NCBI GenBank assembly: GCA_018660835.1
Contig: JABJJN010000056.1
Span: 124,001-188,000, forward strand
Length of the DNA stretch: 64,000 nucleotides
Reading direction: 5' to 3'
DNA from: Gemmatimonadota bacterium
GTDB lineage: Bacteria > Latescibacterota > UBA2968 > UBA8231
Of this stretch, positions 60,745-64,000 are shown piece by piece. Numbering within the stretch: position 1 is the stretch's first letter; every line of letters begins with the position of its first letter. The notes beneath the pieces are model-generated. The model was not told the origin of the DNA. It was given only the letters and a program-made list of their open reading frames with translations, and did not search any database. A program made the translations under genes and the position numbers.

Positions 60745-62733
60745 CTATTGCACCTCGTTGAGTTGCGTGCGTACCAGATGTGCGGCCTCATTGATGGCAT
60801 CAAAGAAGTTGCGAACCTCGACACAATCCCCCGCCATGAGCACATCGCATTCCAGGTTGGATTCTTCAATATGCCGGGCAAGTTCCTGACGCGGGGTGTA
60901 GCCATGGCTGACAATCAGATGGTCCATCTCGTGGATCTCCGGCGCCCCGTCACCGTCCACGAGGGTCACCGTCTTGTCATCCACACGTTTGAGTTGCCGG
61001 TCGGCGACGACGCGCACACCGGCATCGCGGGTTCCTTTGATGAGTAAGGCCAGATTGGTGCCGTGTTCTTCCAGATTGGCGACATCTTCGTCGGCTCGCC
61101 GCGAAACCATGGTGACCTGGCGTCCCTGTTCAGCGGCGTGCCACGCCATTTCATAACCCACGAGTCCTGCTCCCAACACCATGACACGCTCGCCGATGTC
61201 GAGATCGTTCCAGTCGACGAGGGCATCGATAGCCGTCAGGACACGGTCACCGTCTATGCCCGGCACCTCGGGAAGTACCGCTTCTGATCCCGTCGCCAGG
61301 ATCACCGTATCGGGCCGTTCAGCCTCGAGCACACTCAGGGAGACATCGACACCAAGTCGAATGTCCAGTGCTGCCTTCTCCGCTTCGATCCGGTAGTATG
61401 TCAGCAGTCGTTTGATATCCCACTTGAAGCTGGGAATCGATGCCGAGATCATCTCACCGCCAATGACGTCTCGTCTTTCGAAGACGACCACCTCGTGCCC
61501 CATTTGCCGGGCCCGCAAGGCCGCCTCGAGACCGGCAGGCCCCGCACCGATGACGACAACCTTCCTTGGAGCAGATGTGCGTTCGAAAGAGACTGTCTGC
61601 TCCCTCCCGACCACGGGATTGGTCGTACACTGAATCCCGCCGCGATCCATCACGACGAAGGAATGACAGAAATTGCAGCGGATGCAGGGGACGATATTCT
61701 CACCCAACCGCGCCTTGCGCGCCCAGTGCCCATCTGCGATCAAGGGACGCCCCAAAGCGACCATGTCCGCCTGACCCTGGGCAATGATCTGCTCTGCATC
61801 CTTCGGGTCCGTGATGCCTCCCGTGGCGATCACCGGGATGCGCGCACCATTCGCCTTCACCTCGGAGGCCAGATCGACGAGGGTATTCGGTTTGACATAC
61901 ATGGGCGGCACAGAAGGATGTGTGCATTCCACGAAACCTTTCACCCGCATCAGCGTCGATGACGTCGTCGCCACATGTAGGTAGGCAACGCCTTGTGCCT
62001 CCATGAATTCAGCGACGCGCAAATGGAGATTGTCAGGCTCCCCTTCGTCATAGCGATCGTTGACACCGCCGTGCAAATGCTCGTGAGCGCTGAACTTGAG
62101 ACCGATTGGAAAATCATCACCACAGAGCTGTCGAATCCCGCGCACAACGTCAGCACCAAACTTCATGCGCCGTTCAAAATCGCCACCATAGGCGTCATCG
62201 CGACGGTTGGTGTGCGGAGAAATGAATTGGCCCGCCAGATAGGAGTGAGCACAGTGATATTCGACACCGTCGAATCCCGCCTTCTGTGCACGCTGCGCGC
62301 CAAGCACGAAACACTCGACCAAACGCTCAATGTCTTCGACGCTCATCTCACGTGGCACTTGCTCATAGAGTTCGCTGTCCACGGCAGACGGCGCGAAGGG
62401 CTCGACATAGGATTTCCCGCCCAGGGCAGCGATTTGCAGAAAGATGGGCGTGCCCACCTCGTGGACAGCATCGGCCATACGAGAGAGGCCGGGAATAAAT
62501 CGATCGTCCCAGACGGAGGTCGTGATGACACGTTTCTCCGGCCACACCGAGGTGAACTCGGTGATCAGCAGACCCGTTTCGCCATGGGCACGATCCAGCA
62601 GAAAGTCGATGTAGCGCTCGGTCACCTCCCCATTCGGCCCGTGTAAGCCGACATCGACGGGGGCCAGAACGACGCGATTCTTCACCTCGATAGAACCAAC
62701 GTGGATGGGAGAAAACAGGTGTGAAGTCGTCAT
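60745..62733 (-). CDS. NADH:flavin oxidoreductase, Old Yellow Enzyme / 2,4-dienoyl-CoA reductase type with 4Fe-4S and FAD/NAD domains
   Basis: LFSPIHVGSIEVKNRVVLAPVDVGL, GFDGVEYHCAHSYLAGQFISPHTNRRDDAYGGDFERRMKF, Fe-S CIRCNFCHSFVVMDRGGIQCTTNP, KVVVIGAGPAGLEAALRARQMGHEVVVFE. Confidence 0.93.
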   Translation of the reverse strand: MTTSHLFSPIHVGSIEVKNRVVLAPVDVGLHGPNGEVTERYIDFLLDRAHGETGLLITEFTSVWPEKRVITTSVWDDRFIPGLSRMADAVHEVGTPIFLQIAALGGKSYVEPFAPSAVDSELYEQVPREMSVEDIERLVECFVLGAQRAQKAGFDGVEYHCAHSYLAGQFISPHTNRRDDAYGGDFERRMKFGADVVRGIRQLCGDDFPIGLKFSAHEHLHGGVNDRYDEGEPDNLHLRVAEFMEAQGVAYLHVATTSSTLMRVKGFVECTHPSVPPMYVKPNTLVDLASEVKANGARIPVIATGGITDPKDAEQIIAQGQADMVALGRPLIADGHWARKARLGENIVPCIRCNFCHSFVVMDRGGIQCTTNPVVGREQTVSFERTSAPRKVVVIGAGPAGLEAALRARQMGHEVVVFERRDVIGGEMISASIPSFKWDIKRLLTYYRIEAEKAALDIRLGVDVSLSVLEAERPDTVILATGSEAVLPEVPGIDGDRVLTAIDALVDWNDLDIGERVMVLGAGLVGYEMAWHAAEQGRQVTMVSRRADEDVANLEEHGTNLALLIKGTRDAGVRVVADRQLKRVDDKTVTLVDGDGAPEIHEMDHLIVSHGYTPRQELARHIEESNLECDVLMAGDCVEVRNFFDAINEAAHLVRTQLNEVQ

Positions 62734-63605
62734 CGTCCCTCTGCGTTGAGATCGTTAAGGGCAGCCAGAATCGAGGCGCCGCTGACCCGATCGTGAACCC
62801 GGTCCAGCCATCGCGCCCTGATCACACCATCAGGTCCAATGAGGTAGGTACTGGTCACACTGTAGTGGGATACGACATTGAGCTCATCGTCGTTGCCCAG
62901 GGGAAAACCGAGATGGCGCCGGCGTGCGAACTTCTCGGTCCCTTCCACGGATCCCTCACAGTGCAGGGCCAACATCTCGGCGCCTGCGGCGCGGAAGTCA
63001 TCAACATAGTCTCGCAGCTGCACGAGCTGCCGGCTACACGGTCCTCACCAATGGGCTCTTGAGAACACGAGAATGAGCGCTCTTTGATCGCGCACATAAC
63101 CGGAAAGGCTGTGCTCGACGCCATCTGTGTCGGCAATGTGAAAATCGGGCGCCTTCTGGCCCACCTGCGGCAACAGATCCACGGCTTTGTCGCTGATGCC
63201 AGCCGTGTCAGCCGGTGCAGACGCCGCAAGAAAGGCACCAACAGCCTGGAGTCTCGAAGCATTGTCAGGCACCATTCGACCATAGGCGAAGGCAGCGGTG
63301 AGATCTCTGAATTCCCTCGACAGGGGTTCATGGTCCTCGGCAGGGAAGTCCACCAACCCCTCTTGCCATTGTGCCTTCGTGAAAGACGCTGGTTGGTGGC
63401 ACGACAGGCAGCTGGATTGAAAAATGAATCTGCCCGTGATCTGTTGCCATGTCCTGCCCAGTTCCTCATCCACTTGCCACGCCGCGGCGCCGACGAAGGT
63501 CCGCTCGATTTCGGCGGGTGTTCGTGACTGGGCCGGCGTGACACTGATGGCAACCATCAGCAAGACCTGCGGCAGGCCAATGCGACGAAGATTTGATGTG
63601 CTCAT
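62730..63605 (-). CDS. Putative selenoprotein: secreted CxxCH (cytochrome c-like) domain + redoxin/peroxiredoxin-like domain, in-frame TGA (63047-63045) read as Sec in W-U-G-P-C
   Basis: Track ORFs 63045-63644 and 62730-63023 are in the same frame, separated by one TGA: ...VGQKAPDFHIADTDGVEHSLSGYVRDQRALILVFSRAHW-[TGA]-GPCSRQLVQLRDYVDDFRAAGAEMLALHCEG...TYLIGPDGVIRARWL. N-terminal signal and SSCLSCHQ. ATGA overlap with the downstream OYE gene. Confidence 0.72.
63014..63030 (-). promoter_or_regulatory. Candidate bacterial SECIS stem-loop
   Basis: mRNA after UGA: GGACCGUGUAGCCG-GCAGCU-CGUGC-AGCUGC; perfect 6-bp stem, 5-nt loop with GU, loop starting at nt 21 after UGA. Confidence 0.55.
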
Positions 63606-63693
63606 GCGGAAGGGATCTCTGACTTGATTGTGACCGTGTGGCAAAGTGCAAGCGCAATAATAGTCAATCGGACCTTGGCCACCGAAACACGAA

Positions 63694-63757: not shown

Positions 63758-64000
63758 TTACTCCCCGTCGCCGACGGCCTCTTCGTCAACGACGACGCGC
63801 AATTCGATCCTCTTCTCTATCGCCGCACCAGCTTCGCTACCTGTCTCATCATCACCACCGACATGCACATGCACTGATTCGGTGTCGATGCCATTGTCGG
63901 CAAGCTGCTGCTGCACACGTGCCTTGATCTGATCTGCCGTGAGTCCGTCGAGATCGCCCAGGTCGAGTCGGGGCATCGATCCATGCATCTCGTGGATGAG
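63758..64000 (-). CDS. Protein of unknown function, C-terminal part (5' end outside window)
   Basis: Open frame to the window edge: LIHEMHGSMPRLDLGDLDGLTADQIKARVQQQLADNGIDTESVHVHVGGDDETGSEAGAAIEKRIELRVVVDEEAVGDGE*; followed by a terminator. Confidence 0.5.
   Translation of the reverse strand, partial: LIHEMHGSMPRLDLGDLDGLTADQIKARVQQQLADNGIDTESVHVHVGGDDETGSEAGAAIEKRIELRVVVDEEAVGDGE

Follow-up and report, generated by a model that had tools for sequence, protein, structure and literature searches.

The closest described relatives of the gene analysed here are the Prx-like thiol:disulfide oxidoreductase selenoproteins, which belong to PF00578, appear as 'Prx-like 1' in the main text of the Global Ocean Sampling survey (PMC2398784) and are also entered in the 2026 catalogue of prokaryotic selenoproteins (PMC13188914). 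These proteins have an AhpC/TSA fold, selenocysteine (Sec) as the first residue of a UxxC active site, the signature R...U-x-x-C-x-x-Q-L, and depend on the bacterial Sec system. According to the main text of the same survey, two other families, Prx-like 2 and 3, occur in fusions with unknown domains that carry a conserved Cys or CxxC. Two further groups serve for comparison, namely the ResA/TlpA proteins, which are exported redoxins with a WxGPC-type motif, and the PrxQ/BCP peroxiredoxins, which include Sec forms and in which the Sec or Cys ends the motif TPGC/U.

In the present study, we followed up one locus in a window of 64,000 nucleotides, by which we mean the whole stretch of DNA that was analysed, from a 7.09-Mb draft genome. 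We put the probability that an in-frame UGA of this locus is decoded as Sec at about 95%. The whole statement, that the locus encodes one exported selenoprotein redoxin, leaving heme out of account, is also very likely. The features are as follows.

62730..63605, minus strand: predicted selenoprotein gene, with a signal-peptide-like start, a CxxCH domain and an AhpC/TSA-type redoxin; 291 codons and a stop
63528..63605, minus strand: putative signal peptide, residues 1-26, with an N-terminal RR, a hydrophobic stretch and AQS (from sequence and hydropathy)
63396..63410, minus strand: CxxCH motif C66-L-S-C69-H70, putative heme c attachment site
63273..63275, minus strand: Met111, putative axial heme ligand, located 41 residues past the His of CxxCH and ahead of a predicted helix
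63045..63047, minus strand: in-frame TGA, assigned to Sec187, with which the UxxC active site begins
63036..63038, minus strand: Cys190, second (resolving) residue of UxxC
63014..63030, minus strand: SECIS-compatible hairpin of 6 bp with the 5-nt loop CGUGC, the loop lying 20 nt past the TGA
60745..62733, minus strand: old-yellow-enzyme-type FMN/FAD oxidoreductase (Oxidored_FMN and Pyr_redox_2), overlapping the selenoprotein gene by ATGA
63758..64000, minus strand: anti-sigma-like protein of 348 aa, encoded upstream, with one apparent membrane segment; the stretch given covers its C-terminal part

The initial annotation had joined two mechanically called reading frames of the minus strand (63045-63644 and 62730-63023) into one gene split solely by the TGA at 63045-63047, and this was borne out when the frames were checked. 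The best start is the ATG at 63605, which lies downstream of the TTG (63644) used in the mechanical call. From the ATG (63603-63605) the frame runs through 291 codons to 62733 and ends in a terminal TGA (62730-62732), with codon 187 as the sole in-frame stop between them. The position of this codon had been claimed to be that of a thioredoxin-fold redox Cys, and we found the same: its context is FSRAHW-U-GPC, the first position of the redoxin W-x-G-P-C motif. By position alone, the chance that one stop among 291 codons hits the redox residue is about 1 in 300. The Pfam AhpC-TSA profile (PF00578) matches without a break over the TGA, with an E value of 8.6e-21 and 74.6 bits against a gathering score of 26; the match covers residues 161-277 in the TTG-numbered translation P0001, where the TGA is residue 200 and the search tools take U as C. 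The 104 codons 3' of the TGA score +0.239 bits per codon in frame, while off-frame pieces of the neighbouring genes reach at most -0.173, and their codon bias is within the range of the neighbouring genes and exceeds all other frames tested. The model of the redoxin domain has a confident fold (pLDDT above 90) and matches the structures of AhpE, ResA and BCP.

The selenoprotein reading is further supported by the genome itself, in which a search for selA, selB, selD and tRNA-Sec found the complete set: SelA (548 bits), SelB, SelD (358 bits) and a tRNA-Sec with anticodon UCA. The contamination of the draft is estimated at 8%, so the contigs that carry the machinery could in principle belong to another organism. 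Genome-wide reassignment of TGA was considered and rejected, as the gene itself ends in a TGA that overlaps the next start and the UGA-reading tRNA found is the tRNA-Sec. The same genome contains at least four further PF00578 genes, each with one TGA at the redox position. Their motifs are TPGU (PrxQ-like, L054), SASWUGFC, ASWUGC and FTUPPF (deiodinase-like), which fit, by motif, kinds catalogued in PMC13188914. As a separate observation, the SelD of this genome (L010, G000:C4:28285-29205) is a selenoprotein too, with one in-frame TGA near its N-terminus.

The redoxin half is, with high probability, a divergent member of the known Prx-like UxxC kind (PF00578). The protein carries the signature R...U-x-x-C-x-x-Q-L as Sec Prx-like redoxins do, although it is about 35% identical to them at best. 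The R and QL of this signature are present in 66 of 70 TGA homologs and in none of 35 Cys homologs (ResA/TlpA-like); QL was part of the scan pattern that yielded many of the 70, and about 25 rows are independent, 23 of them with QL. ResA/TlpA proteins are its best NCBIfam and PDB sequence matches, but the protein replaces the first Cys by Sec, has no WATWC context, scores 56.9 bits against the NCBIfam ResA cut-off of 170 and falls outside the ResA/TlpA WCxxC clade in the tree. From PrxQ/BCP proteins, which share its superfamily and have a Sec form elsewhere in the genome (L054), it differs by its UxxC motif and its place outside their starred clade. In the tree it forms a long branch outside the group of ResA/TlpA and PrxQ; most of the rows nearest to it are Sec Prx-like proteins, with no starred set and the exact place unsure. 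As the redoxin half is of a kind already catalogued, the novelty is confined to the CxxCH fusion at the N-terminus. The initial annotation had seen here an architecture without a named selenoprotein family; this stands for the fusion, the redoxin half being of the known kind. The CxxCH domain is missing from the entry for the Prx-like family in PMC13188914. Like the fusion selenoproteins of PMC2398784, the protein joins a Sec redoxin to a Cys-containing domain, but according to the main text of that survey those fusions differ in both the Prx-like family and the partner domain. What is new is the CxxCH-redoxin fusion together with its genomic block.

In the mechanism we propose, the SelA/SelB/SelD/tRNA-Sec system would read UGA codon 187 as selenocysteine, and Sec187 of the AhpC/TSA-type redoxin would supply the selenol that attacks a peroxide or disulfide, a chemistry and a substrate that we infer. 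Cys190 would then resolve the intermediate as a selenenylsulfide, as expected for a UxxC site. The N-terminal CxxCH domain would probably be a small domain, either cytochrome-c-like or a thiol domain, that donates electrons to the redoxin or accepts them from it.

The character of this front domain is the point on which another reading survives best. Residues 1-26 are probably a signal peptide, and the protein appears to be exported, to judge from its sequence. The layout of helix, CxxCH, about 40 residues, Met and last helix is like that of a small class I cytochrome c, and the genome contains cytochrome c assembly genes, which make heme possible only. No cytochrome c family of Pfam was above its cut-off for the N-terminal domain (best 12.7 bits versus 27), hence heme is unproven. 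The N-terminal part had no match in a sequence search of the PDB, and the structure model of this part is helical and of low confidence. No relative of the domain was detectable in the 386 genomes searched; the matches obtained were at chance level, and CxxCH occurred in none of the five examined. One candidate relative (L045) was examined and dismissed. On the sequence features, we regard heme c binding by the CxxCH domain as a tentative assignment, somewhat short of an even chance. The chances are about even that the Sec reading holds and that CxxCH is instead a thiol or metal-binding redox motif relaying electrons to the selenol. The sub-threshold cytochrome matches and the low-confidence model favour such a motif, as do the fusions given in PMC2398784, which join marine Sec Prx-like proteins to unknown domains in which Cys or CxxC is conserved; the class I cytochrome c layout, the apparent export and the cytochrome c assembly genes speak against it. 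The fullest version, a c-type-heme selenoprotein in which heme c and Sec oxidoreductase domains lie in one exported chain and respiratory-chain electrons would pass to the selenol, possibly under its own ECF sigma/anti-sigma pair, seems unlikely on present evidence. If CxxCH does bind heme, the protein would link a cytochrome directly and covalently to a selenol active site, and the pairing of cytochrome and selenol is not given for the Prx-like family in PMC13188914.

Upstream of the anti-sigma-like gene, beyond the window end at 64000, lies an ECF-type sigma-70 gene on the same strand (sigma and anti-sigma-like genes: L083:1259-2876), and this pair may regulate the selenoprotein. Past the oxidoreductase, in the same direction, follow a sulfatase, a xylose-isomerase-like TIM-barrel gene and an epimerase gene. 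In a genome of the same genus (G001, L185), the oxidoreductase (82%) adjoins a fumarase-type gene (93%) with roughly 200 bp between the frames, and the block of sigma, anti-sigma-like and selenoprotein genes is absent between these same flanking genes. The block was therefore gained here or lost there.

The absence of the selenoprotein gene from the same-genus genome, and the fact that TGC or TGT becomes TGA by one base change, would also suit a nonsense mutation, in which an ordinary CxxC redoxin is now a decaying pseudogene. We consider this very improbable: exactly one stop occurs in 291 codons, at the residue expected for Sec, codon bias and fold homology persist in the downstream half, the genome decodes Sec, and in relatives that share the signature this codon is TGA as well. 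Many redoxins of the same class and beyond (e.g. FYRGFFUGLC, FYRAHWUPHC and FHRSASWUGFC) have a TGA at the aligned position, which argues against a mutation specific to this strain. An alternation of TGA with TGC/TGT at this codon had been proposed as a check. Both forms were seen, TGA in the Sec Prx-like relatives and TGC/TGT in ResA/TlpA-like ones, but among distant relatives only. No full-length ortholog of P0001 was found in genome contigs, viral contigs, genomes of the class and its relatives or 386 genomes across the domain, and in a plasmid search the redoxin part alone was matched.

In the SASWUGFC sister family, a scan of one genome per species (about 85,000 species) retrieved 49 relatives spread over some ten phyla, and in all 49 the aligned codon is TGA; a few of these loci coincide with loci already in the homolog set. 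The scan was unbiased towards TGA, since one pattern required a Cys codon and the other skipped the position. Zero Cys forms among these 49 loci of the SA[D/S]WU[P/G]FC type (L114-L162) suggests that this family strongly prefers Sec.

One wrong base, from sequencing or assembly, would suffice to turn a TGC/TGT codon into TGA; we give such an error very little credence, because TGA is the usual codon at this position of the family, as is seen from the relatives with TGA and from the further TGA redoxins in the genome. Two separate genes, one stopping at the TGA and one restarting at the GTG at 63023, are what the mechanical ORF list gives, but this has next to no probability, as the second frame would contain neither the active site nor the N-terminal half of the redoxin fold and the profile match depends on both halves, so that the earlier rejection of the GTG frame as a sensible gene is upheld. 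The preferred reading remains decoding of codon 187 as Sec.

A bacterial SECIS prediction after the TGA had been proposed, and the hairpin at 63014-63030 does fit published criteria; this result is not discriminating, because 22% of random positions in the window fit them as well and the folding energy is no better than that of shuffles. The hairpin neither supports nor opposes the selenoprotein claim. An Rfam search near the gene gave chance-level matches only.

Standard gene calling cuts the gene at the TGA, so that this enzyme and the rich Sec redoxin set of this uncultured lineage would be missed or misannotated. Further TGA redoxins were observed during the searches. A class-specific UxxS redoxin family (FFRGTWURRSRRQL; L065, L077 and L080) has Sec but lacks the resolving Cys normally found at +3. 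A distant genome (G102) has at least three TGA redoxins, two of which (L106 and L107) are arranged in tandem and have additional repeat-like domains at their N-termini. In the host genome, the SASWUGFC- and ASWUGC-type TGA redoxin genes (L055 and L060, G000:C4:268224-270053) adjoin on the same strand and possibly form a selenoprotein operon.
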